IMG/VR virus record: IMGVR_UViG_3300020601_000863
Coordinates: 1 to 42,609 of that record
Reading direction: 5' to 3' (one strand)
Source of the DNA: a virus
DNA: 42,609 nt
Numbering within the stretch: position 1 is the first letter of the stretch; every line of letters starts with the position of its first letter. The translations under genes and the position numbers were made by a program. The notes under the pieces were generated by a model, which saw only the letters and a program-made list of their open reading frames with translations, made no database searches and was not told where the DNA came from. This document shows, piece after piece, positions 10,679 through 32,179 of this stretch.

Positions 10679-11838
10679 TAATTATCCGCCTTGGGTCTAA
10701 GTGCTTTAGATAAGCTCTGACGCTCTTCGACAACTTCGCCGCCTATGGTGTTGGTTGCAGTATTATTGATAAAGCTAGACTTTTGAGTCTGTCTCTCAAG
10801 TGTATTACTTAGAGTCATTCTAATATCGTCATTGACCTTAACCCAGCGTTGACCGTCATATCTAAACATTCTATTTGGTAAGAAATCTGTACGCAAGTAA
10901 AAATCTCCCTTGACGTTTTCTCTAGGAAACGAAATACCAAAACCAAACGGAGCACCGTTAGGCGCAGCATCACCTGTTCCTACTAGGTAACCTGTATAAC
11001 CTTCTCGCTCTGGTCTACTTACAATTTCGTCAGTTGTATATGTAATATTTGACGCATCTAAATCTGTTTCATCAGCAGTTGTTAATGCAATGCTACCGTC
11101 ATCGTTTGTACTTACTGTGTAATAATGACTAATGTCGTATCCACTTTTAGGAGCATCAGCTTCTGCTTGTGCAACCACCGCAGCATTAATCTGCATTTCT
11201 TTTTCGTATGTACTTAAAATATCACGCAATGTAGTATCGCTACCTTCTTCTGCAGGCAAGTCAAGTATCTCTGCGTATTCTTGTCCGTCGTATATTTGTT
11301 TAAGTTTTAAACGATATAAGTGCGGATACCATGTCTGCGAAAATCCTTCAGCAGCACGATTAACATCTTCAACTACATAAAATCTTTTTAATGCAAAACT
11401 ATAATCGTTTGCAGCGTATTCGTCTTTTAAGTGAGGTAATTCAATTACATCACCACTCATTATTTTTCTGCCCAATGTTTTAACTGAACTATTAATGTGT
11501 ATTGTCAAGAACAATGTATCATTACTTAAAAACAATCCAAACTGACTAAGATCAAAGTCAATATCTTGTACATTATAAATGCCGCGCATTGTATAAATGT
11601 CTGGATCGTATTTTCTATCTCTATTTTCTAGGAATAGTAAGTCCTGTATATTAGTTTCCTTAACAGCATCATATTGAGGCTGATCAGCTGTGGCAGTTCC
11701 TGTATCTGGATTTTCTGGTCCTAGATACTTGTGTATGTTGATATCAGTACCGCCAACCGTAAACATCTCCTGAATCTGTCGATCTAGGAAATAGTAATCG
11801 TTACCGCGCTCTGGTTTGTATAAACTTATTCTTGGCAT
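10678..11838 (-). CDS. 14: Neck protein, gp14-like
   Basis: This 386-residue protein resembles T4 gp14 in its middle part: 'IMSGDVIELPHL' near 125-137, followed by 'ALKRFYVVEDVNRA' and a 'YRLKLKQI' strand. gp14 works with gp13 in the neck that seals the filled head and receives the tail. The N-terminal 'YYFLDRQIQEMFTVGGTDINIHKYL' region is characteristic of marine gp14 proteins as I know them. The C-terminal third carries 'RMFRYDGQRW' and is longer than in T4 (256 residues). The gene is first of a gp14-gp15 pair and is divergent from gp13, which is usually next to it. The ATG is five bases after a GATAAATA box, with no Shine-Dalgarno sequence. Confidence 0.8.
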   Translation of the reverse strand: MPRISLYKPERGNDYYFLDRQIQEMFTVGGTDINIHKYLGPENPDTGTATADQPQYDAVKETNIQDLLFLENRDRKYDPDIYTMRGIYNVQDIDFDLSQFGLFLSNDTLFLTIHINSSVKTLGRKIMSGDVIELPHLKDEYAANDYSFALKRFYVVEDVNRAAEGFSQTWYPHLYRLKLKQIYDGQEYAEILDLPAEEGSDTTLRDILSTYEKEMQINAAVVAQAEADAPKSGYDISHYYTVSTNDDGSIALTTADETDLDASNITYTTDEIVSRPEREGYTGYLVGTGDAAPNGAPFGFGISFPRENVKGDFYLRTDFLPNRMFRYDGQRWVKVNDDIRMTLSNTLERQTQKSSFINNTATNTIGGEVVEERQSLSKALRPKADN

Positions 11839-11843
11839 ATAAC

Positions 11844-11851
11844 TATTTATC
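11844..11851 (-). promoter_or_regulatory. T4-type late promoter box for gp14 (leaderless geometry)
   Basis: GATAAATA on the minus strand matches the T4 late consensus TATAAATA at seven of eight positions. Exactly five bases (GTTAT) separate it from the gp14 ATG at 11838. T4 late transcripts start about six bases after the box, which here is the A of the ATG. Confidence 0.75.
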
Positions 11852-11857
11852 GGTTAC

Positions 11858-11865
11858 GATAAATA
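11858..11865 (+). promoter_or_regulatory. T4-type late promoter box for gp13
   Basis: GATAAATA is followed by a short leader with GGAG (11872-11875) and the gp13 ATG at 11883. It is back to back with the minus-strand gp14 box, only six bases away. Confidence 0.75.
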
Positions 11866-11882
11866 CTATATGGAGAACACGC

Positions 11883-12641
11883 ATGGCTGATTTAGCAACA
11901 CAAAAACAAGAAGTATTTGACTATGTACATGCCTTTTTAGGCGGTGGCATGGTCGACGTTGAACTTGATCCAATTCACTACGAAACAGCTTTGAAAAAAG
12001 CATTAACCCGTTATCGTCAACGTAGCGATAATTCAGTTGAAGAGTCATACTTGTTTATGCCAACAGTGCTTGAACAAAACGAATATACGTTGCCCCAAGA
12101 AGTTGTTGAAGTTAGACAACTATTCCGTAGAAGTATTGGTTCGCGCACAAGCGGTAACGAAGGTGGCTCTACATTTGAACCCTTTAACGCAGCATATACC
12201 AATACCTATCTGCTTTCAAGTTCTAAAATGGGAGGACTAGCAACATACGATATGTTTAGTCAATACCAAGAACTTGTTGGACGTATGTTTGGTAGCTTTA
12301 TTGAATTTAAATGGAATTCAAACACTAAAAAATTAACTATTTTACAGAAGCCTACAGCAGACGAAACATTGTTAATTTATGCGTACAATTATCGTCCTGA
12401 CACTCAGCTATTAAGTGATTACATGGCAATACAGTGGCTTAAAGATTATACACTAGCAGCATGCAAATATATGCTAGGCGAAGCACGTTCAAAGTTTGCT
12501 ACTATTGCAGGTCCGCAAGGTGGATCAACACTTAACGGTGATGCACTAAAATCAGAAGCAACTGCTGAAATGGAAAAACTTGAACAAGAAGTTAGTCAAG
12601 GTGTTGCAGGCGGAAACGGCTACGGATTCTTAATCGGATAA
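11883..12641 (+). CDS. 13: Neck protein, gp13-like
   Basis: The 252-residue product matches marine T4-like gp13: 'VFDYVHAFLGGGMVDVELDP' near the N-terminus, 'ALTRYRQRSDNSVEESY', 'QNEYTLPQEVVEVRQLFRR', and 'KDYTLAACKYMLGEARSKF' near the C-terminus. gp13 and gp14 together complete the head portal after DNA packaging. The longer reading frame from 11832 was not used because ATG 11883 has GGAG eight bases upstream and starts with the family-like 'MADLATQKQ'. T4 gp13 is 309 residues, so this is a shorter member. It is transcribed away from its partner gp14. Confidence 0.85.
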   Translation: MADLATQKQEVFDYVHAFLGGGMVDVELDPIHYETALKKALTRYRQRSDNSVEESYLFMPTVLEQNEYTLPQEVVEVRQLFRRSIGSRTSGNEGGSTFEPFNAAYTNTYLLSSSKMGGLATYDMFSQYQELVGRMFGSFIEFKWNSNTKKLTILQKPTADETLLIYAYNYRPDTQLLSDYMAIQWLKDYTLAACKYMLGEARSKFATIAGPQGGSTLNGDALKSEATAEMEKLEQEVSQGVAGGNGYGFLIG

Positions 12642-12647
12642 AAACGC

Positions 12648-12676
12648 TTGACATGCACTATTATCTAATGTATACT
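12648..12676 (+). promoter_or_regulatory. Sigma70-type promoter for the nucleotide kinase gene
   Basis: TTGACA (12648-12653), a 17-base spacer and TATACT (12671-12676) form a near-consensus host promoter 28 bases before the kinase ATG. It starts seven bases after the gp13 stop, so the kinase can be expressed early and independently of the late neck gene. Confidence 0.85.
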
Positions 12677-12704
12677 GTTTAGAACAATGGAGTTCTAAAT
12701 AATA

Positions 12705-13283
12705 ATGCATTTACCTAAATTATTAATAGTTGGTCATGGCAGACATGGCAAAGATACCGTTTGTGAAATTTTACAAGATTACGGTTATAAGTTTGAATCA
12801 AGTTCGAAGTTTTGTTCAGAGCTGTTTATCTTTGACGAACTAAAACACGAATACGGATATGCTAACGAAGAAGAGTGTTACGCAGACCGACATAATCATC
12901 GTACTGAATGGTACAATATGATTCACGATTACTGTAAGGACGATTTAGCAAGACTAGGGCGTAACCTGTTTAAAGATCATCAAATTTATTGTGGCTTACG
13001 TAATCGTAGAGAATTCTTTGCAATGCAAAATGAAGAAATCTTTGACTATGCTATTTGGGTCGATCGGTGTGATCATTTGCCAAAAGAAGATCCTAGTTCA
13101 ATGAGTATTGAGCAATGGATGTGTGATTACACTATTGACAACAATGGCGATCTAGCAAGACTTAAAAACAATGTAGAAGTACTGATGCGTACTATCTTTA
13201 AAAATCGGGGACTAAGTCTCCCTGTTTCCAACGGATACCTTCCTTCTGCAACAGACGTTGACAGTTCGCACATATTGTCTTAA
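12705..13283 (+). CDS. P-loop nucleotide kinase, probable dNMP kinase
   Basis: This 192-residue protein has an N-terminal P-loop 'GHGRHGKDTVC' (about residues 9-19), followed by 'YGYKFESSSKF', acidic 'YADRHNHRTEWYNMI' and 'LRNRREFFAM', typical of phage deoxynucleotide monophosphate kinases related to T4 gp1. These phosphorylate dNMPs to feed phage DNA synthesis. The kinase-like sequence ends near residue 165 ('NNVEVLMRTIF'). The last 27 or so residues are encoded antisense to the end of the HNH gene and look like chance coding, so the C-terminus may have been altered when that gene arrived. GGAG lies 12 bases before the ATG. It has its own sigma70 promoter, consistent with an early metabolic gene inside a late block. 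Confidence 0.75.
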   Translation: MHLPKLLIVGHGRHGKDTVCEILQDYGYKFESSSKFCSELFIFDELKHEYGYANEEECYADRHNHRTEWYNMIHDYCKDDLARLGRNLFKDHQIYCGLRNRREFFAMQNEEIFDYAIWVDRCDHLPKEDPSSMSIEQWMCDYTIDNNGDLARLKNNVEVLMRTIFKNRGLSLPVSNGYLPSATDVDSSHILS

Positions 13284-13533
13284 GATTAGTAGGACTGCAA
13301 TTATTTAAATCACCATCTATATGAAACACATTGAACTGCTCAGTGTGTTTTGATTTAAAATTGCATTTCTCACAAAAGTCTTTTTTGACATAGCCGCGCT
13401 GCTTCCATTTAGGCACGCCGTGCCCGATGCCATTGCGCAGACAGCGTTCGCATAGTTTGCGATAATAAACTTTGTCCTCTTTTTTATAGTTTATAGCCGC
13501 AGGACGCTGGCCGCACTTGCATAATGGTCTCAT
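13198..13533 (-). CDS. Small HNH endonuclease-like protein
   Basis: This 111-residue protein has four Cys pairs (CKC, CERC, CEKC, CANC) and an HNH-type core: 'FHIDGDLNN', then 'TNLKTICANCQ'. The first His, the Asp and the Asn-Leu are present. The last position, often His after the CxxC, is Gln here. HNH proteins nick or cut DNA and often move themselves between phage genomes; proteins of this type are frequent in marine T4-like phages. It is on the opposite strand from its neighbours and overlaps the kinase 3' end by 86 bases. Upstream of the ATG is 'GAGGTAAATACAAT', which holds both a possible RBS (GAGG) and a late-like TAAATA. Activity is uncertain because of the Gln. Confidence 0.75.
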   Translation of the reverse strand: MRPLCKCGQRPAAINYKKEDKVYYRKLCERCLRNGIGHGVPKWKQRGYVKKDFCEKCNFKSKHTEQFNVFHIDGDLNNCSPTNLKTICANCQRLLQKEGIRWKQGDLVPDF

Positions 13534-13537
13534 ATTG

Positions 13538-13545
13538 TATTTACC
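13538..13545 (-). promoter_or_regulatory. Possible late promoter box or RBS for the HNH gene
   Basis: GGTAAATA on the minus strand ends four bases before the HNH ATG. The 13 bases TAAATACAATATG are identical to those at the gp17 start. GAGG just upstream could instead be a Shine-Dalgarno sequence 10 bases from the ATG, so the assignment is weak. Confidence 0.35.
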
Positions 13546-13600
13546 TCACCTTTTCGGTACCTTTTTCCATAGGTTATATAGGGCATTTTCTCTAGGAAGT

Positions 13601-13608
13601 AATAAATA
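13601..13608 (+). promoter_or_regulatory. T4-type late promoter box for gp18
   Basis: AATAAATA lies 31 bases before the gp18 ATG and is followed by a leader with a good Shine-Dalgarno sequence (AGGAGA, 13628-13633). Confidence 0.7.
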
Positions 13609-13639
13609 CACTTAGCATACATCCAATAGGAGAAATATA

Positions 13640-16600
13640 ATGGCATTAGTATCACCAGGCGTAGAAGTCAATGTAATTGACGAATCATTCTACACTCCGG
13701 CCGCAGCCGGAACAGTACCAATGATTTTTGTTGCTTCTGCTAGTAATAAAACTAGTAGCAGCGGAGCAGGAATTGCAGCAGGTACACTGCAAGCAAACGC
13801 AGGAAAAGCATATTTAATCACTAGCCAGAGAGAGCTAGGAGAAACATTTGGCGATCCGCTATTTTATTCGGATAGTATCGGCAACATGATACATGGCGGA
13901 GAACTTAACGAATATGGTTTACAAACTGCATATTCATTACTAGGTGTTACTAATCGTGCATATGTAGTTCGTGCAGATTTAGACACAGCTAAACTAGCAC
14001 CTAGCGCAACTGCTCCAGGCGGAGAGCCTGCAGATGGTGCATATTGGTTTGACACAGCAGTTACTGGCTTTGGTCTTCTTGAATGGAATTCAGCAGCAGT
14101 AACTACTGTAAACGGACAAAGTTTTACATCAATAACTCCACTAGTTATTACTGAGCCTACTGACTTAACAAACGATGTACCAAAAGGTTCAATAGGTCAA
14201 ATTGGTAGCTATGCAGTTGATGCAACTACTACAACTACACAAGTGTGGTATAAGTCTGCAGGTACAGTACCGAGTGCAGGCGCTGTTACATATAATGATC
14301 CAGGCACATGGGTTAAAGTTGGTAGCACTGGGTGGTCAGCAAGTCATTCTGCGGTTCGTGCATCGATTGCAAATGCAGTTCCAGCAGACGGTGAGTCGAT
14401 TACTATTAATGGTACTCCTGTAACTGTACAAGTTGGTGAAAATACTATTGCAGAATTTGCAGCTGAAATTAATAGTTCCGGAATCGCAGGTATTACTGCA
14501 ACAGCAATTAACGGCGTACTTGAAATTTATTCAACAGGCGTTGATGTTGTTATTGCTAACGTAACTGGTGCTTTGTTAACTAACACTGGTATTGTTGCAG
14601 GTACATATTCTGCTCCTAGACTAGAAATTAAACCACACACTGATGTTCCAGGATACAAATCATCTGATACTTCTCCTGCTCCGACTGGTTCACTTTGGAT
14701 TAAAACAACAGTGCCTAACGGTGGTGCAAACTTCCGTGTTAAGCAATACAATGGTGATACTGCACTATGGGATACAGTAAGTGCTCCGGTATTTACTTCA
14801 CCAGAAGGTGCTATTCTTAATCTTGATAGAACAGGTGGCGGATCAAACTTAACCCTTGGACAAGTTTATGTAAAAGGAAACGTTGAAGAATCTACTTCAC
14901 CACTAGCAAGCTATAAGATTTATTCACGTGCAGCAACAGGTGCAACTAGCATTTCGAGTGCTAAGATTGTTGCACAACTATCAGGTGTATATACATTTAG
15001 TATAGAAGAAAGCGTTGTAGGTTCTGCAACTCGCGTATCAAAAGCTATTACTACACCATCAGTGACCGGTGTTGGCGCTGCTGAAGATATTGCAAGTACA
15101 ATTAACGCAGCAGGATTTACTAATATTGTTGCACTTGTTGATTCTGGCAACAGAATTGTAATTCAACATAAACTAGGTGGTGAATTCCGCATTACTGAAG
15201 GTTCGGGCTTTATGACTGATGCAGGGTTTGAAGGATTTGATCCTGATGCAAACGCTGGCGCAGGCAATGCAGCTACAGCAACAGCTAATCTTTACATTGC
15301 ACCAACAGGTGATGCAACTAACGATTATGTTGCTTCAAACTGGAAACCACTTAGCTATACAGCAACAGGCACTGAGCCATTAAGCCTAACAGCAGACGGC
15401 GAAATTTGGTACAACTCAATTGTTGACGAAGTTGATATCATGTTGCATAACGGTACTGATTGGGTTGGATATCAAAGTTCAAACGGTGGTTATGTTGACA
15501 CAGATCCAGCTGGACCAATTGTAAGCGCAGCTGAGCCAACAGAACAGAGCGACGGCAATCCGCTTGAAACTGGTGATTTGTGGATTAGCACAGCAGATGT
15601 CGAAAACTATCCAGCGATTTATCGTTACAACGGCACTCTTGCTGCATGGGTATTACTTGATAAAGCAGATCAAACAACTGAAAATGGTATTCTGTTTGCT
15701 GATGCAAGACAAGCAGACAATGGCGGCAGCACTTTAGTTGCACCAAGCGCAACTATTGCAGAAATGCTAACAAGTGACTACTTAGATCCAGATGCTCCAG
15801 ATCCAGCACTATATCCAAAAGGTATGCTACTATGGAACCTACGTAGAAGTGGCTTTAACGTTAAGCGTTTTGATCGTAACTACATTGATGTAGCTGGTAC
15901 TAACCCACGTCAAGGTGATGCATCAATGGACAGCTATTATCCACATCGTTGGGTTACTGCTTCAGGCAATAACGAAGATGGTTCAGGTACATTCGGTCGT
16001 CATGCACAACGTAAGACAGTTGTACAGGCACTACAGGCAATGGTTAACAGCAACCAAGACATCCGTGATGAAGAATCACGTCAGTTTAACCTAATTGCTT
16101 GCCCAGGTTATCCAGAACTAATCGGCGAAATGATCAGCTTAAACTACGATCGTCGTTTAACTGGATTTGTTGTCGGTGATACACCAGCAAGACTAACACC
16201 AGATGCTACATCATTAAATGAATGGGGTCAGAACGTTAGACTAGCAGTTGAAGACAACGATGACGGTTTAGTAAGCAGAGATGAATATTTCGGTATTTAC
16301 TATCCATGGGGCTTTACAAGCGACAATGCAGGTAACAATGTTGTTGTACCACCGAGCCATATGGCATTACGTACTATTGTACTAAACGACCAAGTTGCAT
16401 TCCCCTGGTTTGCTCCAGCTGGAACGAGACGTGGTGGAGTAACTAATGCAAGCGCAACTGGTTATGTTAGTGCAGAAGGCGAATTTGTTTCAGTGGCACT
16501 TAACACTGGACAGCGCGATACATTGTATTCAAACGCAATTAACCCGATTACATTTATTAGTGGCGCAGGTTTAGTTGTATTTGGTCAAAAAACTCGTGCA

Positions 16601-16939: not shown

Positions 16940-16948
16940 TATGCGTAC

Positions 16949-16981: not shown

Positions 16982-16983
16982 AG

Positions 16984-16991
16984 CATAAATA
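16984..16991 (+). promoter_or_regulatory. T4-type late promoter box for gp19
   Basis: CATAAATA is followed by AGGAGA (16998-17003) and the gp19 ATG at 17009. It begins three bases after the gp18 hairpin, so gp19 can be transcribed separately, as expected for a very abundant protein. Confidence 0.75.
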
Positions 16992-17008
16992 TTGTATAGG
17001 AGAATAGA

Positions 17009-17740: not shown

Positions 17741-17748
17741 GATAAATA
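17741..17748 (+). promoter_or_regulatory. T4-type late promoter box, leaderless geometry
   Basis: GATAAATA is followed by exactly five bases (TTTAC) and the ATG at 17754. The only purine-rich stretch upstream (AAGG at 17738-17741) is too far from the ATG for a usual RBS. Confidence 0.75.
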
Positions 17749-17753: not shown

Positions 17754-18965
17754 ATGTCGTTAAAAGATCCATATTTACAGAATGTTAATTTAGACTTGCA
17801 CTTGCGAGATGCACGTCATGCTCATCAGTTGTTTAATGAGCACAATCTTGCATTGGCTCCTAAAACTAAGTTCTTGTATCATGTATTGTTTACTCCGATG
17901 CCGGAAGTAGGAAATAGTGCAAATAGCAATACATTTAAATTTCAAAAAGAAATTGGAGTGTTAGTTAAGAGTGCAGATTTACCAAGTTATAGAATTAGTG
18001 TAGAAAATAAACAACAATATAATCGTAAAAAGAATGTACAAACTCGTATAGATTATCAAGATGTTAATATTGTACTGCACGATGATAATACTGGTATCAC
18101 TCGAGGAATGTTAGAAGAATATTATCGTTATTATTTTAATGATGGTAATAATCAAGCATTTAATGGTGCATATGATGCACGTGACAAATATAAAAATGGT
18201 AGCATTCCGGTATACGGAATGAATACTGGAATACGTGGGCCGTTCTTTAATAGTATAACAATATATCAACTTTCTAGAAGAAATTGGTATGCATATACTC
18301 TAGTTAACCCATTAATATCTGCATGGAATCATGGAAATGTTGACTCAAGCAGTGGCGCAGACATGAATTCAAATAGTATTACACTTGCATACGAAGCAGT
18401 TATGTATACGCATGGAATCATCGGTGATAGAGGCGAGCCTGGAGGATTTACTGATGATGCAACTAGATACGATAATGTTATGAGCCCATTGGGGTATGCA
18501 GACAAGAATATGATTGACGCTGCATATGCAAGTGCTGACCCTGCACTTGTTGACGAACGACGAAATGTAGATAATTTTGTAGTTCCTAGAATGACAAACA
18601 GTTCGAATAATTCTCCGCTAGCAGGTATATTTGGAATTTTTAATCAATTACCGGGAGGATTAACTAATACTAGTGTGCCTACAGTTGATTCACAAGCTAA
18701 CACAAGTACTTCACGTATAAACAATGTTTCGACATCTAATAAAGGTGTATCAGCAATAACAGATGCATTTACAACAAATTTATCTGCACTTAAGAGTTTT
18801 GCAGCAAAGGCACTTAATGCAGGCGCGGGCGGAGTTAGCTACGCTGAGTATAATGCTGCATCCCCAGCTGTTCAATCACAAATAGAACAACAACTAACAG
18901 CAGATACTGCAAATAATGCAAAATTACAAAATTTTGCAAATGAAGCAATTAATGCTAGTAAATAA
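17754..18965 (+). CDS. Virion protein with tail-tube-like features (possible tube initiator or second tube protein)
   Basis: This 403-residue protein shows the strand pattern of tube-fold proteins in residues about 35-240: 'KFLYHVLFTPMPE', 'IGVLVKSADLPSYRISVE', 'RIDYQDVNIVLHDD', 'SITIYQLSRRNWYAYTLVNP' and 'NSITLAYEAVMYTHGII'. This is like gp19 and the tube-related baseplate proteins gp48 and gp54. The last 150 residues are low-complexity, Asn/Ser/Ala-rich and end in a helical tail. It could be gp54 (tube initiator), a gp19 paralogue or a neck-side tube cap. The position right after gp19 supports a tail role but does not settle which. It is probably translated from a leaderless late mRNA and followed by a 122-residue protein 14 bases on. 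Confidence 0.55.
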   Translation: MSLKDPYLQNVNLDLHLRDARHAHQLFNEHNLALAPKTKFLYHVLFTPMPEVGNSANSNTFKFQKEIGVLVKSADLPSYRISVENKQQYNRKKNVQTRIDYQDVNIVLHDDNTGITRGMLEEYYRYYFNDGNNQAFNGAYDARDKYKNGSIPVYGMNTGIRGPFFNSITIYQLSRRNWYAYTLVNPLISAWNHGNVDSSSGADMNSNSITLAYEAVMYTHGIIGDRGEPGGFTDDATRYDNVMSPLGYADKNMIDAAYASADPALVDERRNVDNFVVPRMTNSSNNSPLAGIFGIFNQLPGGLTNTSVPTVDSQANTSTSRINNVSTSNKGVSAITDAFTTNLSALKSFAAKALNAGAGGVSYAEYNAASPAVQSQIEQQLTADTANNAKLQNFANEAINASK

Positions 18966-19349: not shown

Positions 19350-19787
19350 ATGTCGAGATTTGCACAAGGTAAATTTAATCTAAAAAACCCTGAAAAATAT
19401 GTAGGAAATAAAACTCCTACATACCGCAGTGGTTGGGAATTTACTTTTATGAAATTTTGCGACGAACATGCTGCAATATCTCAATGGGCAAGTGAAGCAG
19501 TACGCATACCTTATAGAAATCCATTAAGTGGCAAGCAGACAATTTATGTACCAGACTTTTTTATTGTTTATGCAGATAAAAACGGAGCACAGCGAGTTGA
19601 GCTTATTGAAGTTAAACCTAAGAACCAATCAATAAAAGAAAACTTAGGCCGTAGCAAACATAATCAAGCACATTGGGTCATTAATCAAGCAAAATGGGAA
19701 GCTGCAAGAGCTTGGTGCAAACAAAAAGGAATTCTTTTCCGTATTGTTACTGAGGATGATATATTTCATCAAGGTAGAAAACGATAA
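19350..19787 (+). CDS. 4: Head completion protein gp4
   Basis: This 145-residue protein matches T4 gp4 (about 150): 'NPEKYVGNKTPTYRSGWEF' near the N-terminus, then 'SGKQTIYVPDFFIVY' and 'VELIEVKPKNQ'. The Asp in 'VPDFF' and the Glu and Lys in 'IEVK' form a PD-(D/E)XK nuclease-like core, as noted for the gp4/TnsA-like family. gp4 is needed to make filled heads competent to join tails. It lies one base after the previous gene and its stop codon overlaps the late box of the terminase small subunit. Confidence 0.88.
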   Translation: MSRFAQGKFNLKNPEKYVGNKTPTYRSGWEFTFMKFCDEHAAISQWASEAVRIPYRNPLSGKQTIYVPDFFIVYADKNGAQRVELIEVKPKNQSIKENLGRSKHNQAHWVINQAKWEAARAWCKQKGILFRIVTEDDIFHQGRKR

Positions 19788-19790
19788 ATA
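19783..19790 (+). promoter_or_regulatory. T4-type late promoter box for gp16
   Basis: GATAAATA overlaps the gp4 stop codon and lies 26 bases before the gp16 ATG at 19817, leaving a short leader with GGAC. Confidence 0.65.
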
Positions 19791-19816: not shown

Positions 19817-20320
19817 ATGACAAAAAAATTAGAAGATTTATTAAATTTACCAGACTCTAAAGATATTATTAAAAATGCAGAGTCTCAGGAAAAAGAACAA
19901 GAAAGTTATGCTCTCAAGGAACAAGAAAAAACGTTTCGTGATATAGCAGAGTTTGATAAAATTGCTAGTGCATTGCCAGCAGTTAAAGGACTAGGCGAGA
20001 TGGCTGATAAAGAGCTTAATGAAATTGCTGACAAAGCAATGGAAGCATATGACGATCTAATGGATCTTGGTATGAATGTAGAAAGTCGTTATGCTAGTAG
20101 AGTATTTGAAGTTGCAGGCGGCTTGCTTAAAACCAGCTTAGATGCCAAGGTTGCTAAACTAGATAAAAAATTAAAAATGGTTGAGCTACAACTTAAAAAA
20201 GAAAAAATGGACAAAGAAGGTAGTACCGGCGATGACGGCATGATCAACGGTCAAGGATATGTTGTTACAGATAGAAACAGTCTTCTAGAGCGCCTTAAAG
20301 GCTTAGATAAAGATAAATAG
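19817..20320 (+). CDS. 16: Terminase small subunit gp16-like
   Basis: This 167-residue, highly charged helical protein has a long coiled-coil-like region ('RVFEVAGGLLKTSLDAKVAK', 'LDKKLKMVELQLKKEKM', about residues 95-135), the pattern of marine gp16 proteins. T4 gp16 is 164 residues. It forms rings that recognise viral DNA and stimulate the gp17 motor. The position between gp4 and the prohead/gp17 block supports this. Small terminases vary a lot in sequence, so the call relies on length, helix pattern and place. Confidence 0.75.
   Translation: MTKKLEDLLNLPDSKDIIKNAESQEKEQESYALKEQEKTFRDIAEFDKIASALPAVKGLGEMADKELNEIADKAMEAYDDLMDLGMNVESRYASRVFEVAGGLLKTSLDAKVAKLDKKLKMVELQLKKEKMDKEGSTGDDGMINGQGYVVTDRNSLLERLKGLDKDK
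20312..20319 (+). promoter_or_regulatory. T4-type late promoter box for the first prohead-internal gene
   Basis: GATAAATA overlaps the gp16 stop codon. A leader with AGAGG (20326-20330) follows, with the ATG at 20341. Confidence 0.7.
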
Positions 20321-20834: not shown

Positions 20835-21638
20835 ATGAACATGAAAGATATGATCCAGCGCATGACTGCTATTGATGCTGGAAAAACACAATTAAATGAA
20901 TCAGCAGTTGCTGAATGCGGTATGCCGCCGTCTGCACCACCAATGAATCAAGGTACTCCTGTTAGTATGAATGTTAGTTTAAATGCAAGCGGCACTGAAC
21001 ATGTTGAAGATTTAATCAATATGATGAAAAATGCAGGTATGGGCGCAGCAGAGCCAGTTAGTGCTAAAATGCTTTCACCCCGTATGGACATGGAACGTTT
21101 ATCAAGCATTATGGGCGAACCAGACATGGGTCCAGAAAGTGTTGAAGAAGGCGCAGGCGTTGAAATAACCGACGAGTTATGGGACAAAATTGTTGCACGT
21201 AAACAAGAACTTATGGGACCAGATGAAGATGAAATGGAACCAGAAGATGCACAGGATCAAGCAGCAGAAGAAATGGATGTCGATCCAGAAGAACTAAATG
21301 CTTGGTTAGAAGCAAAGTTTGATGAAGGTTATGCTAACGAACCAGACGAAGCGTATGGTGATACACAACTGATGACTAAAGATTTGTCAGGCGGTCTTAA
21401 TCGTGAAAAGAAAAGTTATAAAGTAGTAGCTGGCGGCGATAATCCAATGGAATACAAAATGGAAGTAGAGTCGATTAAAGAAGCACTAATGGCAGCACTA
21501 CAAGAGAAGAAAGCAAAGCCAGACTTCCTTGATGTTGACAAAGACGGCGACAAAAAAGAGCCAATGAAGAAAGCACTTAAAGACAAAGGTAGCAAGCCTA
21601 AAAAAGGTGAAGTACCTCCGCAATTTAAGAAAAAATAA
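20835..21638 (+). CDS. Acidic probable prohead-internal or scaffold-associated protein
   Basis: This 267-residue, very acidic protein has a basic tail. Residues 1-23 contain 'QLNES' with an L-x-E cleavage-like site at 20-22. A segment 'VEDLINMMKNAGMG' near 55-70 resembles proteins of marine T4-like phages. The middle is a Glu/Asp-rich helix region ('DEDEMEPEDAQDQAAEEMDV'), and the end carries 'FLDVDKDGDKKEPMKKA', an Asp-rich calcium-loop-like motif, followed by Lys-rich sequence. No enzyme motif is present. It sits between a probable internal protein and gp17 and ends just before an intrinsic terminator. A role inside the prohead is inferred from composition, the cleavage-like site and neighbours. 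Confidence 0.55.
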   Translation: MNMKDMIQRMTAIDAGKTQLNESAVAECGMPPSAPPMNQGTPVSMNVSLNASGTEHVEDLINMMKNAGMGAAEPVSAKMLSPRMDMERLSSIMGEPDMGPESVEEGAGVEITDELWDKIVARKQELMGPDEDEMEPEDAQDQAAEEMDVDPEELNAWLEAKFDEGYANEPDEAYGDTQLMTKDLSGGLNREKKSYKVVAGGDNPMEYKMEVESIKEALMAALQEKKAKPDFLDVDKDGDKKEPMKKALKDKGSKPKKGEVPPQFKKK

Positions 21639-21660
21639 ACTACGGTGGGGATCGGATCAA

Positions 21661-21687
21661 ATAGGACCTTCGGGTCCTATTTTTTTG
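21661..21687 (+). terminator. Intrinsic terminator before gp17
   Basis: A perfect 8-bp stem (ATAGGACC at 21661-21668 with GGTCCTAT at 21673-21680) has a stable TTCG tetraloop, followed by seven T residues. It ends the gp16/prohead transcript 22 bases after the preceding stop and abuts the gp17 late box. Confidence 0.93.
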
Positions 21688-21695
21688 AGTAAATA
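21688..21695 (+). promoter_or_regulatory. Possible late promoter box for gp17
   Basis: AGTAAATA immediately after the terminator T-tract ends four bases before the gp17 ATG at 21700. It keeps TAAATA but not the first bases of the consensus. GAG at 21687-21689 is a poor RBS, so initiation at or near the start codon is possible. Confidence 0.5.
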
Positions 21696-21699: not shown

Positions 21700-23280
21700 A
21701 TGGCAAAAGCATTAGACGGCGTTTTAATTAAAAAAGCAAATAAGAAGGAATCATTTACCGAGGCCCAGATTGCTGACCTCATGAAGTGTATGGATCCTAC
21801 GGACGGGTATATGTACTTTGCTCGTAAGTTTGCTTACATACAACATCCAGTAAAAGGTAAGTTGTTATTTGATCCATTTGAATATCAAGAACGCTTGTTA
21901 AAAAGTTATCACAATTTCCGCTTCAACATTAATATGCTACCAAGACAAACAGGCAAAACTACTTGCGCTGCTGTATACCTAGCATGGTACGCAATGTTTA
22001 ATCCGGATCAAACTATTCTTATTGCTGCACACAAATATACAGGTGCTCAAGAGATTATGCAACGCATCCGTTACATTTACGAACTGTGCCCAGATCATAT
22101 TAGAGCTGGTGTTACTAACTACAACAAAGGCTCAATTGAATTTGAAAACGGATCACGTATTGTTAGTGCTACTACAACTGGTAACACAGGACGTGGTATG
22201 TCTATATCACTACTATACTGTGACGAGTTTGCATTTGTACAGCCTAACGTAGCAGTTGACTTTTGGACTTCAATATCTCCTACACTAGCAACTGGTGGTC
22301 GTGCAATTCTTACAAGCACACCAAACAGTGACGAAGACACATTTGCTACTATTTGGAAACAAGCAGAAGATAAGTTTGATGAACACGGTAACGAACAAGA
22401 AGTAGGAATTAATGGTTTCCATAGTTTCCGTAGTTACTGGACGGAACATCCAGACCGCGATGAAAAATGGAAACAAGAAGAACTAGGACGCATCGGCGAA
22501 GAACGATTCCGTCGTGAATACGACTGTGAATTCCTTGTATTCGATGAAACACTTATTAGTAGTTTAAAACTTGCCACAATGGACGGCGCAAGTCCGTTAG
22601 TTAATATGGGACAAACACGTTGGTATAAGAAGCCAACTAGCCAATATACATATGCTGTAGCACTCGATCCTAGTATGGGAACAGGCGGCGATAATGCTGC
22701 TATACAAGTATTTGAATTACCAAGTTACGAACAAGTTGCAGAGTGGCAACATAATACGACTGCTATTCCCGGGCAGATAAGAGTGCTTGCAGATATATGT
22801 AAGTATCTTGCGCAGGAAACAGGGAACCAGAACGGAATTTACTGGAGTGTCGAAAACAACGGTATCGGCGAAGCAGCACTGCTCGTTATAAACGACTTCG
22901 GTGAGGAAAATATTCCAGGATTATTTGTTAGCGAACCAATTAGAAAAGGTCACGTCAGGAAATTCCGTAAAGGTTTCAATACTACACACGGCAGTAAAAT
23001 TACTGCATGTAGTAGACTTAAAACTATGCTCGAAAATGATAAAATGATTATACACAGTAAGCCATTTATATCAGAGCTTAAAAATTACGTAGCAACAGGA
23101 TCTAGTTATCAATCAAAATCAGGACAAACAGACGATCTTGTTAGTGCTGCATTACTTGCTATAAGAATGATGGCAGTACTAAAAGATTGGGATCCAAGAA
23201 TCTACAATACATTTACGCAAGCTGAAAATATAGAAGATTACGAAGCACCAATGCCGATCTTCATTAGCAGCAATTATTGA
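21700..23280 (+). CDS. 17: Terminase large subunit gp17
   Basis: The product (526 residues) has an N-terminal packaging ATPase with Walker A 'LPRQTGKTT' (about 79-87), Walker B 'LLYCDEF' (about 170) and the coupling 'LTSTPNS' (about 205), and a C-terminal RNase H-like nuclease with 'ALDPSMGTGGDNAA' (about 320), 'SVENNGIGEAAL' and 'QTDDLVSAALLA' (about 475). This is the DNA-packaging motor that pumps and cuts concatemeric phage DNA. The frame is open back to 21607, but that part overlaps the previous gene and the terminator. ATG 21700 starts the family-like 'MAKALDGVLIKKANKKESFT'. T4 gp17 is 610 residues; marine versions are usually near this length. Confidence 0.95.
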   Translation: MAKALDGVLIKKANKKESFTEAQIADLMKCMDPTDGYMYFARKFAYIQHPVKGKLLFDPFEYQERLLKSYHNFRFNINMLPRQTGKTTCAAVYLAWYAMFNPDQTILIAAHKYTGAQEIMQRIRYIYELCPDHIRAGVTNYNKGSIEFENGSRIVSATTTGNTGRGMSISLLYCDEFAFVQPNVAVDFWTSISPTLATGGRAILTSTPNSDEDTFATIWKQAEDKFDEHGNEQEVGINGFHSFRSYWTEHPDRDEKWKQEELGRIGEERFRREYDCEFLVFDETLISSLKLATMDGASPLVNMGQTRWYKKPTSQYTYAVALDPSMGTGGDNAAIQVFELPSYEQVAEWQHNTTAIPGQIRVLADICKYLAQETGNQNGIYWSVENNGIGEAALLVINDFGEENIPGLFVSEPIRKGHVRKFRKGFNTTHGSKITACSRLKTMLENDKMIIHSKPFISELKNYVATGSSYQSKSGQTDDLVSAALLAIRMMAVLKDWDPRIYNTFTQAENIEDYEAPMPIFISSNY

Positions 23281-23286
23281 TAAATA
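23279..23286 (+). promoter_or_regulatory. T4-type late promoter box, leaderless geometry
   Basis: GATAAATA overlaps the gp17 stop codon (TGA 23278-23280), and exactly five bases (TTAAC) precede the ATG at 23292. No Shine-Dalgarno sequence is present. Confidence 0.75.
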
Positions 23287-26124: not shown

Positions 26125-26131
26125 AAACAAC

Positions 26132-26182
26132 GCTGTAGGCTTGTATTTTTAGAAACAAGTCTACAGCCTTTACAGCTTTTTT
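26132..26182 (+). terminator. Hairpin with alternative arms between gp32 and uvsX
   Basis: GCTGTAGGCTTGT (26132-26144) pairs with ACAAGTCTACAGC (26155-26167), 13 bp with one G-U pair. A second copy of TACAGC (26171-26176), followed by TTTTTT, can compete for the 5' arm. This looks like an intrinsic terminator that may leak, giving more gp32 than UvsX. The uvsX RBS (AGGAG) follows directly. Confidence 0.7.
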
Positions 26183-26192
26183 AGGAGAAAAC

Positions 26193-27504: not shown

Positions 27505-27506
27505 TA

Positions 27507-27962: not shown

Positions 27963-28654
27963 TCGACTTTTTTTGCATTTATAAAAAAAATGACGAACGA
28001 AGTACGCGATTAGCAAACGAAGCGATTCAATCAGGAAAAAAATACAACATTAATGTACACTTACACGAAGGTGTTTATTCTAACATTGATGGAATAATGA
28101 AAGACGAAGGATTAGTAGTCAATCATTGGGGCAAACAAAAAATACGAGCAATAGGAGTTCTTGGCTGCTTTTTAAGTCATTATACTCTTTGGAAAAAGTG
28201 TATTGATTTAAACAAACCAATAGGTGTACTAGAGTACGATGCATATTTTATAAATTCATTACCTGATAATTTTTTAAATTCATTTAAAGATTATTGTAAT
28301 TTAGATTACACTCGCCATTTATACTACGGCACCGGAAAAGAATTATATCTACAAAATTTAGAATATGACAAGCCGATTACTATTCATCCATTAGAAGAAC
28401 GAGCTCCGGAAAAAAGAGGATCGTTCAAACATATGAATAATAATCATATCAAAGGTGCCTTCGGATATGTTATTAAACCATCAGGTGCAACCAAGCTAGT
28501 AACTGCTTCAAAAGAATTTGGGATATTACCTGCTGATGTACAGCCTAACTTAAATTATTGTAATGTCTATTATACTACTCCGAGTGTAGTGATGTTAAAT
28601 ATGAATAGCCTATACGATAGGTTTTCACATACACAAACTGATCAAACGGAATAA
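27959..28654 (+). CDS. Glycosyltransferase family 25-like
   Basis: This 231-residue protein has the GT25 pattern 'RAIGVLGCFLSHYTLWKKC' (about 60-78), then 'IGVLEYDAYF' where the family has an acidic E-D-D metal/sugar site, and 'HIKGAFGYVIKPSGATKL' (about 160-180). GT25 enzymes add sugars, often galactose, to bacterial LPS. Key acidic residues are only partly kept (EYD rather than EDD), so the donor cannot be predicted. The ATG overlaps the uvsY stop by four bases, so it is read from the same mRNA as the recombination genes. It opens the surface-glycan cluster. Confidence 0.8.
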   Translation: MIDFFCIYKKNDERSTRLANEAIQSGKKYNINVHLHEGVYSNIDGIMKDEGLVVNHWGKQKIRAIGVLGCFLSHYTLWKKCIDLNKPIGVLEYDAYFINSLPDNFLNSFKDYCNLDYTRHLYYGTGKELYLQNLEYDKPITIHPLEERAPEKRGSFKHMNNNHIKGAFGYVIKPSGATKLVTASKEFGILPADVQPNLNYCNVYYTTPSVVMLNMNSLYDRFSHTQTDQTE

Positions 28655-28658
28655 TATC

Positions 28659-29291
28659 ATGGAACATTTAGTAGAACTTAGAGACGGTTGGTGGTGGCCC
28701 AAGCATGACGTTGCTTGCTGGAGATATTTGTCTAGAAGACAAGATGTTCCTACAAACGTATCTGCATATACTAAACAACAGCGAGTAGTTGTACAAGCCG
28801 GCGGCAATGCTGGCATGTATGTAAAAAAGTATGAAGACATTTTTGATACAGTTTACACATTTGAACCCGATCCAATAAATTTTTATTGCCTAACAAAAAA
28901 TACTAGTAATAGAACTATTAAGTTTCAAGGATGTTTAGGAAACGAAACAAACTTTGTAAATTTGTCATATGATGAAACACATCATAAAAAGCCCAACAGC
29001 GGTGGGTATCGTGTTAAAGGTACTGGAATTATTCCTACATTAATACTTGATAATTTTAATCTTTCGATTGTAGATTTAATACATTTAGATATCGAAGGAT
29101 TTGAAAAGTTTGCATTACTAGGTGCAATTGAAACTATAAAACGCTGCAAGCCTGTAATTGCGTTAGAATTAAATGGCCTAGCAGAAAAATATAATCATAC
29201 CAATAACGATGTTAAACAGTTAGTAATCGAGTTAGGATATACTGAAACTGGAATAGTAGATGATGACATTATATTTGAATATAAGAGTTAA
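28659..29291 (+). CDS. FkbM-family methyltransferase (copy 1)
   Basis: This 210-residue Rossmann methyltransferase has the SAM loop 'VVQAGGNAGMYVKKY' (about 48-62), the acidic strand 'VYTFEPDPINFYCL' and 'DLIHLDIEGFEKFALLGA' (about 145-162), all diagnostic of the FkbM family. Members methylate sugars, glycolipids or other small molecules. The variant 'QAGGN' replaces the usual 'D-x-GAN'. It is a clear paralogue of the next gene, with motifs in the same order and spacing. It lies four bases after the GT25 gene. The substrate is unknown; O-methylation of a glycan made by the neighbours is the simplest idea. Confidence 0.85.
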   Translation: MEHLVELRDGWWWPKHDVACWRYLSRRQDVPTNVSAYTKQQRVVVQAGGNAGMYVKKYEDIFDTVYTFEPDPINFYCLTKNTSNRTIKFQGCLGNETNFVNLSYDETHHKKPNSGGYRVKGTGIIPTLILDNFNLSIVDLIHLDIEGFEKFALLGAIETIKRCKPVIALELNGLAEKYNHTNNDVKQLVIELGYTETGIVDDDIIFEYKS

Positions 29292-29293
29292 TA

Positions 29294-29932
29294 ATGGAAA
29301 ATAATATAACTTTAGTTAACGGGTTTTATTTTCCAACAATCGGCGCAACTAACGCAAATAAACAAAAAGCCAATTGGGATGAACAACCTAAGCTAATAGC
29401 AGGTTATGCTAAGAATAAAAAAACTTGTATTCAAGCAGGCGGAAACGTTGGGTATTATACTAAAATTTATGCAGGCATTTTTGATACAGTATACACATTT
29501 GAACCTAACCCGTTAAATTTCTTTTGTCTTGTTAAAAATGTGCAAGATAGCAATGTTATTAAAATGCAATCATGTTTAGGTAATACGCACCAATTAGTTG
29601 ATATAGCATTGCCTGCATCACATGTTAAAAAAGGTATAAACATAGGAACTTATTATATATCAGGTAAAGGCAAAATACCTACAATGCTAATTGATGATTT
29701 AAATTTAGACAGTTGCGACCTAATACATTTAGATATTGAAGGCTTTGAAGTTAATGCAATTAACGGCGGACTTTTGACTATTAAAAAATTTAAACCTATT
29801 ATATGTTTAGAAATTAATTCTGCATTGCAAAACTTTAATTACTCTGCTAATACAGTATTCGACTTAATGAAATCTTTAAATTATAAATTAGTAGATCAAA
29901 TTAACGAAGACTATATATTCGAGGGCGTGTAA
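29294..29932 (+). CDS. FkbM-family methyltransferase (copy 2)
   Basis: This 212-residue protein is paralogous to the gene just before: 'CIQAGGNVGYYTKIYAGIFD', 'VYTFEPNPLNFFCLVKN', 'DLIHLDIEGFEVNAINGG' and 'KPIICLEINS'. The same unusual 'QAGGN' SAM loop shows a tandem duplication rather than two separate gains. The copies differ enough that they probably act at different positions or on different acceptors. It starts two bases after copy 1, and its last base is the first of the next gene's ATG. Confidence 0.85.
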   Translation: MENNITLVNGFYFPTIGATNANKQKANWDEQPKLIAGYAKNKKTCIQAGGNVGYYTKIYAGIFDTVYTFEPNPLNFFCLVKNVQDSNVIKMQSCLGNTHQLVDIALPASHVKKGINIGTYYISGKGKIPTMLIDDLNLDSCDLIHLDIEGFEVNAINGGLLTIKKFKPIICLEINSALQNFNYSANTVFDLMKSLNYKLVDQINEDYIFEGV

Positions 29933-30705
29933 TGATCGATAGCCCTACTATATTCACCGGTGGTGACTCTAAGTACTGGAAAAAATACGGCAAGGTATTT
30001 GTAAGAAGTTTTAATCATTACAATCCTGATAAAACTATTCATGTACATATCATTAATCCTGATGATAATGATATAGAAGATTTAAAGTTATTGCCGTGTA
30101 ATTATACAACTGACTTTATTGACGAAATATACATTAATGACTTGTGTTTAGAATCTATAAAATATTTAGAAAATCCTCATATAGACGAACTACACAAACA
30201 AAAATTAAAACACGGTTTGTCATTCTGCAACGAAGAAACGCTTGTAGAAAAAATGAAACATCTAATGACGTTTTCGGTATATGCTTGTAATAGATTTATA
30301 ACATTATCAAAACTATGGACAGGTAATCATCCAGTAGCAGCGTATGATATGGACACTATATGCAAAGGTGCAATAGATATTAATAAAATGTTAGGCACTA
30401 ATGACTGTGGATGCTTGTCAGTTAAAGGTCCAAGATTTGTAGTTAGTCTAGTTGCATTTAGAAACAACAACTCGCTATTATTAGACTGGAGCAATAGCCT
30501 ATCTAATTCTTTTAATTCTAAAAAAGTATACGGATTTTTAGATCAAGATACCTTTGTTGAAAAAAGTAAATTATATAATACTACACATATTGATAAAATA
30601 TTTTGTGATCATACAAAGAAGTCAGACAGCGCATTAGTAATGACTGGCAAAGGCGCAGCAAAGATTAGTGATAGATTTTATATGGAATCTAAAAAATGGT
30701 TATGA
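29932..30705 (+). CDS. GT-A-like glycosyltransferase, putative
   Basis: This 257-residue protein has the order seen in GT8-like enzymes: an N-terminal strand-helix ('SPTIFTGGDSKYWKKYGKVF'), 'HPVAAYDMDTICKG' with a D-x-D motif (near 140) for metal and nucleotide sugar, 'VVSLVAFRNNNSLLLDW', and 'FLDQDTF' (near 200), similar to the family's 'DQD' acceptor motif. Overall similarity is distant. It is the last gene of the uvsY-linked plus-strand run and converges with the sulfotransferase (6-base overlap). The sugar donor is unknown. Confidence 0.65.
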   Translation: MIDSPTIFTGGDSKYWKKYGKVFVRSFNHYNPDKTIHVHIINPDDNDIEDLKLLPCNYTTDFIDEIYINDLCLESIKYLENPHIDELHKQKLKHGLSFCNEETLVEKMKHLMTFSVYACNRFITLSKLWTGNHPVAAYDMDTICKGAIDINKMLGTNDCGCLSVKGPRFVVSLVAFRNNNSLLLDWSNSLSNSFNSKKVYGFLDQDTFVEKSKLYNTTHIDKIFCDHTKKSDSALVMTGKGAAKISDRFYMESKKWL

Positions 30706-31362
30706 AAATGTATAACCAAAATTATCTATATCTTCTTCATATAACGATTTAATTAAATTAACAGTATAGCTATTTGTAAAAATATCTCTATAAGATATGT
30801 TACTAGGGCCTTTGTTAGTTATAGGCAACGACATATTTTTAAATATTTCAATGTTGGTTATTTCTTCGTTAATGTTTTCAAATTTAATAACCTTATCAAC
30901 TGATATTGATTTAGATTTAAGCCATGTACTCTGACTATCGGATAATTTAAACCAAGTATTATCCCATGCATGATTATGATATCGAGTTAACCACTTTTCA
31001 AAACTATCAATCATAATGTTATATTCTTCGAGTACTATATCATAATTATCTTGAACTTTGTTAGTTTTTTTACCTGCATATAATGCCTTTAATCCTTGTC
31101 GAAGAACTTCTCGTCTAAAGAAAAACCAGCTAGCAGTTCGGCACCAAGGATTTCTTACAATAGAAAAAACATAAGGATCTTTCTCGTTGACAAAATCTTC
31201 TGCGTCTTTTAAAGTACTATGAAAATTTAAATTAGTAGTCCTGTCATTGGGAATAATTTCGTAATTGTAATTATTTTTAATTAATGTCAATACACTTCTC
31301 CCAGCAGTTTTCGGTATATGGATAAAAACTGCTGGTGTTTTAGATTCTATATAATAACTCAT
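30700..31362 (-). CDS. Sulfotransferase family protein
   Basis: This 220-residue protein has the 5'-phosphosulfate loop 'FIHIPKTAGRSVL' (about residues 13-25) and the 3'-phosphate motif 'FSIVRNPWCRTASWFF' (about 87-102), the PAPS-binding pair of carbohydrate sulfotransferases. These transfer sulfate from PAPS to a glycan hydroxyl. The reading frame could start at 31392, but ATG 31362 lies five bases after a TAAATA box and begins 'MSYYIESKTPAVF', directly before the PAPS loop. It is the only minus-strand gene in the glycan cluster, tail to tail with the GT-A-like gene and divergent from the nucleotidyltransferase fusion. Confidence 0.85.
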   Translation of the reverse strand: MSYYIESKTPAVFIHIPKTAGRSVLTLIKNNYNYEIIPNDRTTNLNFHSTLKDAEDFVNEKDPYVFSIVRNPWCRTASWFFFRREVLRQGLKALYAGKKTNKVQDNYDIVLEEYNIMIDSFEKWLTRYHNHAWDNTWFKLSDSQSTWLKSKSISVDKVIKFENINEEITNIEIFKNMSLPITNKGPSNISYRDIFTNSYTVNLIKSLYEEDIDNFGYTFS

Positions 31363-31367
31363 ATATC

Positions 31368-31375
31368 TATTTAGC
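31368..31375 (-). promoter_or_regulatory. Late-type box for the sulfotransferase, leaderless geometry
   Basis: GCTAAATA on the minus strand keeps the TAAATA core. Five bases (GATAT) separate it from ATG 31362, the same spacing as at gp14, 17754, 23292 and 31403. There is no Shine-Dalgarno sequence. Confidence 0.55.
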
Positions 31376-31389
31376 GCATTAACTACATA

Positions 31390-31397
31390 CATAAATA
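31390..31397 (+). promoter_or_regulatory. T4-type late promoter box, leaderless geometry, for the glycan operon
   Basis: CATAAATA is followed by five bases (TCTAC) and the ATG at 31403, with no Shine-Dalgarno sequence. It faces away from the sulfotransferase box 14 bases to the left. It would drive the overlapping gene run that ends near 36292. Confidence 0.75.
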
Positions 31398-31402
31398 TCT
31401 AC

Positions 31403-32179
31403 ATGAAACATCGTGTAGTATTAGTTACAGGAGGCTTTGACCCACTTCACAGTGGTCATATCGCCTACTTTAAAGAAGCAAAAAAACTTGGCTCTAAATT
31501 GATTGTCGGAGTTAACAGTGATAATTGGTTGACTCGTAAAAAAGGCAGACCGTTTATGCCATTTGAAGAACGTGTTGCTATTATTAAAGAATTAGCATGT
31601 GTGGACAAGGTCATAGGTTTTGACGACAGCGACAATACAGCATGTCAGGCAATCTTTCATACATTAAGTACACACGGTACTGAAACAAAAGTTATTTTTG
31701 CAAATGGTGGTGATAGAACTAATACAACAACTCCGGAATATAAAGTATACGGAAGCATGCCCTATGTCGAATTTGCTTTCGGAGTTGGTGGAGAGCATAA
31801 GAAAAACTCAAGCAGTTGGATTCTTGACGAATGGAAAGCACCTAAGACAGAACGTCAATGGGGATATTATCGTGTACTCCATGAAGTCGAAGGATGCAAA
31901 GTAAAAGAACTTACTGTTGATCCGGGAAAAAGTTTAAGCATGCAACGACACGATTATCGTTCAGAACATTGGATGGTTAGTGAAGGTGCGTGTATTGTAC
32001 ACAGTAAGATGCCAAACGGATACAGTTTGCCACCTAGAGAATTAACAGTACATCAAGCATTTGAAATCCCAGTAGGCGAATGGCATCAATTGACTAATCC
32101 GTTTGATGTTCCTTGTAGAATAGTAGAAATACAATACGGAGAGCATTGTATAGAAGAAGATATAGAGAGAGAAGATTAA
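31403..32179 (+). CDS. Nucleotidyltransferase-cupin fusion (sugar-nucleotide type)
   Basis: Two domains are fused in 258 residues. Residues 1-130 form a cytidylyltransferase-like domain with 'TGGFDPLHSGH' (HxGH motif, about 9-19), 'IVGVNSDNWLTRKKGRPF' and 'FANGGDR', close to the HldE C-terminal domain. Residues 150-258 form a type II mannose-6-phosphate-isomerase-like cupin ('YYRVLHEVEGCKVKELTVDP', 'LSMQRHDYRSEHWMV', 'IPVGEWHQLTNPF', 'IVEIQYGEHCIEEDI'). The pairing suggests one protein that both isomerises (or binds) a sugar phosphate and activates it, but the sugar is unknown. It is first in a chain of overlapping glycan genes. Confidence 0.8.
   Translation: MKHRVVLVTGGFDPLHSGHIAYFKEAKKLGSKLIVGVNSDNWLTRKKGRPFMPFEERVAIIKELACVDKVIGFDDSDNTACQAIFHTLSTHGTETKVIFANGGDRTNTTTPEYKVYGSMPYVEFAFGVGGEHKKNSSSWILDEWKAPKTERQWGYYRVLHEVEGCKVKELTVDPGKSLSMQRHDYRSEHWMVSEGACIVHSKMPNGYSLPPRELTVHQAFEIPVGEWHQLTNPFDVPCRIVEIQYGEHCIEEDIERED

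Follow-up and report, generated by a model that had tools for sequence, protein, structure and literature searches.

Whether the late genes of T4-like phages can be transcribed from the first base of their coding sequence, so that the messenger carries no leader at all, is the question raised by IMG/VR virus record IMGVR_UViG_3300020601_000863, the DNA of a T4-like phage that was analysed over its whole length of 42,609 bases (the window) and is perhaps a fragment. The best named matches of its terminase large subunit gene (terL) belong to the PA5oct group, at about 54% identity, and its gene order (head-tail adaptor, dNMP kinase-like, sheath, tube, second tube, head closure, terL) is akin to that of the same group. 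The original prediction was that a late box with the core TAAATA lies a fixed five bases before the ATG of five genes without a usable Shine-Dalgarno (SD) sequence at normal distance, and that these genes form a leaderless class next to a second class of late genes with a leader. Our analyses indicate that promoters of the gp55 type very probably start transcription on the A of such ATGs and give leaderless late mRNAs. This reading is built on features of the sequence, namely the box, its spacing and the bimodality of that spacing, the pyrimidine before the A, the gene-specific conservation of the arrangement, the lack of an SD in most leaderless families and the reality of the starts.

All five TAAATA-N5-ATG sites are present, with ATGs at 11838 (minus), 17754, 23292, 31403 and 31362 (minus), where N or d followed by a number gives the bases between the TAAATA box and the start codon. 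Two N4 sites had been overlooked, one before terL at 21700 and one before an HNH-like gene at 13533 (minus); the tight spacing stands, and the exact five is replaced by four or five. At terL the mechanical open reading frame (ORF) opens with a GTG at 21607 and the N4 box precedes ATG 21700, and in the 31362 (minus) gene the longest ORF opens upstream at 31392 and only ATG 31362 stands five bases past a box. The window contains 41 TAAATA words, of which five lie at N5 before an ORF of at least 100 amino acids, compared with 0.11 expected (Poisson P about 1e-7), and each of 14 permuted hexamers gave 0 or 1 at N5, in line with the earlier view that the repeat is unlikely by chance. A further N3 site at 12705 (dNMP kinase-like) was rejected, as 0/56 relatives are leaderless and 52 boxless relatives have SD-like pairing. 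The leadered genes gp13, gp18, gp19, gp16 and 20341 match their first description, gp16 being the one without a clear SD. The lack of a usable SD at the five sites holds overall, with the correction that AAGGA lies 11 nucleotides (nt) before ATG 17754, adjoining the box; GAGG likewise adjoins the box 10 nt before ATG 13533 (minus). Both words are farther out than the 7-9 nt usual for gp13 and gp18 here and would fall outside a leaderless transcript.

Box-to-ATG distances in 396 related loci (five viral-contig scans) together with the window, after removal of duplicate contexts, were bimodal, with 4 coding ATGs at d3, 163 at d4, 341 at d5, 4 at d6, 1-18 at each distance from d7 to d16, and a broad hump from d17. 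The 14 permuted hexamers averaged 26 at d4 and 21 at d5, some of these words overlapping the same sites. Start codons at d4-5 were ATG in 504 cases, GTG in 4 and TTG in 1. Five long contigs totalling 1.07 Mb gave 30 sites at d4 and 47 at d5, versus control means of 7.1 and 5.4. The spacing distribution, proposed at the outset as a check, is not flat; it has a sharp peak at 4-5 in the relatives and a peak at 5 in the cultured SAR11 phage HTVC008M. The box has the core TAAATA in a TATAAATA-like word that is loose at -13, with TAAGTA as a minor form, and N5 boxes mostly have a G at the second position ahead of the core and an A immediately ahead of it.

The arrangement is specific to the gene family. 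Orthologues were found with blastp and their starts placed from the alignment, leaving out rows whose alignment began after query residue 12, with no start codon within 6 codons, with fewer than 45 bases upstream or with duplicate contexts. The leaderless state predominates among relatives of terL, of the second tube-like, HNH-like and gp14-like genes, of the gene after terL (23292) and of the nucleotidyltransferase, and is found in 9 of the 21 sulfotransferase relatives, while the sheath, tube, gp13, 20341 and gp16 families are mostly or entirely leadered (counts in Table 1). SD-like pairing, defined as anti-SD pairing with an energy of -4 or lower, occurs in 4% of the leaderless terL copies, 3% of the 23292 family, 3% of the nucleotidyltransferases and 0% of the gp14-like copies; every leadered gp13, gp18 and gp19 copy shows it (100%). 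No box was found within 60 nt of ssb (153/157), uvsX (135/140) and uvsY (106/111), nor of most gp4, 18980 and 20835 copies; the box serves late genes, for virion and packaging, rather than early ones. The proposed division into two late classes is thus upheld, each being specific to gene family, with three amendments: the spacing is N4 or N5, gp16 is mostly without an SD, and two leaderless families carry weak SD-like words before the box.

A quick terL tree (119 thinned rows and 4 references) showed that the leaderless state, present in 91 rows, needs 13 changes as against 28.5 with shuffled labels, which fits an old leaderless state with repeated changes. In L007, L008, L018, L019 and L248 the terL start apparently follows an inserted gene or its remnant and has more SD-like bases. 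The slot before terL (for example L007:3212, L020:560, L032:4649, L107:4901 and G006:114501) holds unrelated genes with a terminator-like T run, a box and a near ATG, as at terL itself, and it appears to accept insertions whose starts are leaderless.

In T4 the late box spans -13 to -6 (PMC1524935, with PMC2988020 compatible, as far as the accessible text of both goes), so that +1 is the sixth base past the box and N5 places +1 on the A of the ATG. Of the 504 leaderless ATGs, 499 directly follow a pyrimidine (T or C), as expected if the A is +1; of the ATGs at d17-31, 60% follow an A. Leadered promoters with an SD have a pyrimidine-purine (YR) step at box+4/5 or +5/6 in 264 of 279 rows, which come from related genes and hence are not independent, compared with a mean of 170 and a maximum of 188 in 2000 column shuffles. 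These YR statistics are compatible with a start at base 5 or 6 past the box. The leader minimum of 12 nt in the 279 rows stems from the choice of d17-31; when leaders were counted from the YR step for all ATGs at d6-60, 60 measured 1-11 nt and 456 measured 12-27 nt. At leaderless sites a C directly after the box is associated with N4 (150/69 vs 13/272).

The gp14-like family offers a direct comparison, since 32 copies have TAAATA-N5-ATG and the promoter is retained in 13 leadered copies through position -1 relative to the inferred start, the sequences differing from +1 on. In these 13 copies 12-13 nt precede the ATG. Two codons further along, an ATC occupies the alignment position of the leaderless ATG, and AGGAG stands at a normal gap of 7 nt from it (L137, L162, L171, L172, L176, L182, L188, L202, L205, L207, L211, L222 and L229). 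A plain SD leader before the ATG was dropped as a description of them, because AGGAG is separated from the ATG by 1 nt and from the ATC by 7 nt; the spacing evidence is untouched. Judged from the alignment, the ATC is a candidate AUC start codon, and some relatives may have traded a leaderless AUG for an SD-led AUC start. Because all 45 gp14-like copies bear an opposed box word toward gp13, a leaderless gene and a leadered one can be driven by a single divergent promoter pair. Back-to-back late promoters a few bases apart occur at 11836-11885 and 31360-31405 of the window and at 18916-18943 of HTVC008M (L542); one of these pairs drives one gene of each class, others two leaderless genes.

The proposed mechanism is as follows. 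RNA polymerase with a phage late sigma factor would recognise GATAAATA and start at a purine 5 or 6 bases past the box. For terL, the second tube-like gene, the gp14-like gene, the structural gene after terL, the HNH-like gene and some accessory genes, this purine would be the A of the AUG, so that ribosomes would have to initiate at an AUG at the very 5' end. Sheath, tube, gp13 and 20341, the leadered set, would use this start site too, with a leader of about 12 nt or longer that carries an SD. A 70S start on a 5'-terminal AUG is what we infer from work cited in the accessible part of PMC12340547. Such an arrangement would keep low-copy assembly and accessory proteins at low levels, independent of upstream read-through.

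Several results weigh against this reading, among them the relatedness of the 279 leadered rows mentioned above. All 13 leadered gp14-like copies have AGGAG only 1 nt from the ATG, so that either this ATG or the ATC may be their true start. The rule that C after the box gives N4 was rejected, the YR position in leadered promoters not being predicted by the C (P 0.18). The leadered class is not uniform, 115 of 140 gp16 copies having no SD word. At d5, boxes without a peak were found in whole T4 (3 vs 1.2 in the control), S-PM2 (1 vs 0.6), PA5oct (3 vs 2.3) and Atu_ph07 (2 vs 2.3), and 47 kb of Phosso likewise has boxes and no peak. A search over six long related contigs located the late sigma family phrog_234 in four of them, which counts in favour of the reading; against it, neither phrog_234 nor phrog_12791 was found in the box-bearing contigs G001 and G005, both of which may be fragments. 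When the counts were collapsed to protein families (477 sources, made up of the histogram set and 80 more loci), 29 families had the box at d5 and 17 at d4, with at least two contexts in 18 and 7 of them, and a control of 7 hexamers by 36 spacings still reached up to 17 families, and up to 9 when two contexts were required; the d5 peak is clear after this collapse and the d4 peak is not clear by family count alone. That the whole pattern arises by chance or from composition has next to no probability all the same: such words do abound in AT-rich genomes and control hexamers do meet ATGs, in up to 17 families at one spacing, but the excesses in the window and in the relatives given above and the conservation of the state by gene family contradict it, as do the histograms.

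It is unlikely that transcription begins a few bases before the ATG and leaves a tiny leader without an SD, so that the messengers are not truly leaderless. Spacings of 4 and 5 both occur, some relatives show 6-8, and the start site of this clade is taken from T4 only; the pyrimidine before the A and the point from which the 13 leadered gp14-like copies diverge fit the A of the ATG instead. We regard as quite improbable that the box is a real late promoter while translation proceeds mainly from longer read-through transcripts with an SD ahead of the box, the tight spacing being a product of genome compaction. Several leaderless genes do lie closely behind a gene on the same strand. Of the leaderless copies, 88% of the HNH-like and 57% of the tube-like ones show SD-like pairing ahead of the box; this pairing, which also tells against leaderless starts, could serve read-through RNA, although its gaps to the ATG (10-16 nt and 11-12 nt) exceed the usual 7-9 nt of gp13 and gp18. 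Compaction, however, predicts a continuum, and the 60 leaders of 1-11 nt stand against the 456 of 12-27 nt beside 504 of zero length. Four of the six main leaderless families have no SD above the shuffled level. A hairpin and T run stand directly before the box in 76 of 145 leaderless terL copies, the gap to the ATG in the window being only 13 nt, and the genes at 31362 (minus) and 31403 (plus) are divergent, so that neither has a same-strand gene just upstream. That translation begins farther downstream, at a codon preceded by an SD, and passes over the ATG behind the box is very improbable. Starts cannot be taken for granted, because the mechanical ORF starts are wrong at terL and 31362, and terL codons 2-7 are weakly constrained. 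Yet the search for downstream starts that had been called for found an in-frame start with an SD in only 0-8% of copies per leaderless family (terL 11/145, gp14-like 0/32, nucleotidyltransferase 1/61, 23292 family 3/125, tube-like 1/61, HNH-like 0/72), most relatives align from residue 1, and codons 2-20 of the leaderless families mostly evolve like protein, varying mainly at third positions, least clearly in terL codons 2-7. A start-codon test in the nucleotidyltransferase family, in which GTG and TTG were confined to non-leaderless copies, was discarded, since most such starts look internal to proteins that are longer and only distantly related (39-47% identity; 58-60% in two of them).

In HTVC008M there are 12 sites at d5 versus 1.3 in the control, and 11 of the 12 TAAATA-N4-Y-ATG matches (Y, pyrimidine) are independently annotated starts, which likewise speaks against downstream starts. 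Its leaderless-type genes include those for head closure, tail tube cap, DNA end protector, baseplate and tail completion; the genes for the major capsid, sheath and tube are SD-led and have no box within 50 nt. This phage shares the sharp N5 peak at annotated starts and differs in belonging to another T4-like lineage, with terL on a very long branch, and in having no leadered hump. Melnitz has 3 sites at d5 versus a control of 0.6, and two of the genes at these sites (cyclase, end protector) are shared with HTVC008M; a cyclase-like gene with about 47% protein identity is in leaderless arrangement in HTVC008M (11972), Melnitz (54825) and G001 (133242). In PA5oct the leaderless arrangement does occur at one gene, gp262, whose annotation reads structural protein and carries a mass-spectrometry note. 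The annotated start of PA5oct terL (L398:24847) falls within a hairpin-like segment with a T run behind it, and the homologous start looks to be an ATG 27 bases downstream. An origin in alphaproteobacterial hosts found no support: Cr30 and phiM12 have no TAAATA-N4-Y-ATG match and ORM_20 has one, and Atu_ph07 lacks a peak. Ribosomal protein bS21 was identified in 6 of 11 phage records (G001:121276, G004:232992, G005:111767, PA5oct, Phosso and HTVC008M) and peptide deformylase in 2 of 11; bS21 as the cause likewise found no support, as PA5oct and Phosso carry it without a peak.

The features of the window are listed in Table 1. The product of 31403-32179 is a cytidylyltransferase-like domain fused to a mannose-6-phosphate isomerase C-terminal domain. 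The HNH-like gene (13198-13533, minus) is small, cysteine-rich and opposite to the tail genes; it gave no Pfam or PHROGs match at E 0.001 and is named from its appearance only.

Table 1. Late boxes and associated features of the window, with the class of their relatives
Feature	Position	Strand	Gene and start	Class and relatives
Gp14-like virion protein	10678..11838	-	phrog_11591, E 2.5e-85; the name gp14 is that of the original prediction	Leaderless class
Late box GATAAATA	11844..11851	-	N5 before gp14-like (phrog_11591) ATG 11838	Leaderless; 32/45 leaderless, 13 leadered
Divergent late box GATAAATA	11858..11865	+	gp13, head-tail adaptor Ad2, ATG 11883	Leadered with GGAG; 55/62 leadered
Late box GGTAAATA	13538..13545	-	N4 before ATG 13533, HNH-like gene of 111 amino acids; GAGG just before box	73/75 leaderless
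Late box AATAAATA	13601..13608	+	Tail sheath gp18, ATG 13640	Leadered with SD; 74/74 leadered
Late box CATAAATA	16984..16991	+	Tail tube gp19, ATG 17009	Leadered with SD; 96/97 leadered
Late box GATAAATA	17741..17748	+	N5 before ATG 17754, second tail-tube-like protein, 403 amino acids	61/67 leaderless
Late box GATAAATA	19783..19790	+	gp16-like terminase small subunit, ATG 19817	Leadered, no clear SD; 104/140 leadered, 12 leaderless
Late box GATAAATA	20312..20319	+	20341, virion structural protein	Leadered with SD; 125/137 leadered
Intrinsic-terminator-like hairpin	21659..21686	+	10-bp stem and T run, end 13 nt before terL ATG; -13.9 kcal/mol, z -1.96	
Late box AGTAAATA	21688..21695	+	N4 before terL ATG 21700	145/178 leaderless
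Terminase large subunit (gp17-like)	21700..23280	+	PF03237, PF17289	Most relatives align from residue 1
Late box GATAAATA	23279..23286	+	N5 before ATG 23292, virion structural protein phrog_13484	125/177 leaderless
Late box CTAAATA	31368..31374	-	N5 before ATG 31362, sulfotransferase-like	9/21 leaderless
Late box CATAAATA	31390..31397	+	N5 before ATG 31403, nucleotidyltransferase	62/106 leaderless

The late promoters of T4, served by gp55, gp33 and gp45, resemble those described here in the TAAATA core, the loose -13 base and the virion and packaging genes that they serve, as far as the accessible text of PMC2988020 and PMC1524935 goes, and the sigma family is present in four of the six long related contigs; T4 differs in that the box-to-ATG distance over its whole genome peaks at 28, with no peak at 4-5. 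The late promoter of cyanophage S-PM2, NATAAATA in the available portion of PMC2984593, has the same box consensus and differs by its single N5 site without a peak. The TA-led leaderless genes of bacteria (PMC3160421) and the -10-adjacent ORFs of Deinococcus-Thermus (PMC12340547), as presented in the accessible parts of these papers, are alike in that a -10-type element some 10-12 nt ahead of the start codon is taken to mark a leaderless gene, and the boxes described here stand at that distance; they differ in that the element there is a cellular -10 box, and here it is a phage late box, with one temporal class in T4-like phages. The leaderless gene of lambda is cI. Lambda is named among the leaderless phage mRNAs in the accessible text of PMC3160421, and phage transcripts are called 'often leaderless' in that of PMC5312081; these messengers likewise have no 5' untranslated region, and a T4-like late class is not described in those portions of the two papers. 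The literature searched, most subscription papers lying outside it, gave no account of T4-like phages with leaderless late genes. Leaderless genes, the TA-led criteria and T4 late promoters are each known separately, and their combination in T4-like late genes did not turn up in that literature.

The available part of PMC7029224 states that attempts to predict late promoters in pelagimyophages were unsuccessful, and boxes unusually near the ATG may explain that failure. The arrangement gives a sequence rule for spotting late genes in metagenomic phages and corrects gene starts, terL beginning at 21700 and not at 21607. HTVC008M provides a cultured test system, and the leadered and leaderless orthologues of one gene form a ready comparison of two modes of translation start. 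Among the leaderless genes is terL, which is a frequent marker gene for tailed phages. From the general copy numbers of these phage proteins, it is suggested that leaderless genes are the low-copy ones (terL, baseplate, tail completion), as against sheath, tube and capsid. Aquatic T4-like phages might then, as a tentative proposal, split their late genes under one promoter type, with abundant virion proteins having SD leaders and low-copy assembly, packaging and accessory proteins being leaderless, their output set by start-codon recognition on the intact 70S ribosome and possibly tuned by phage bS21.

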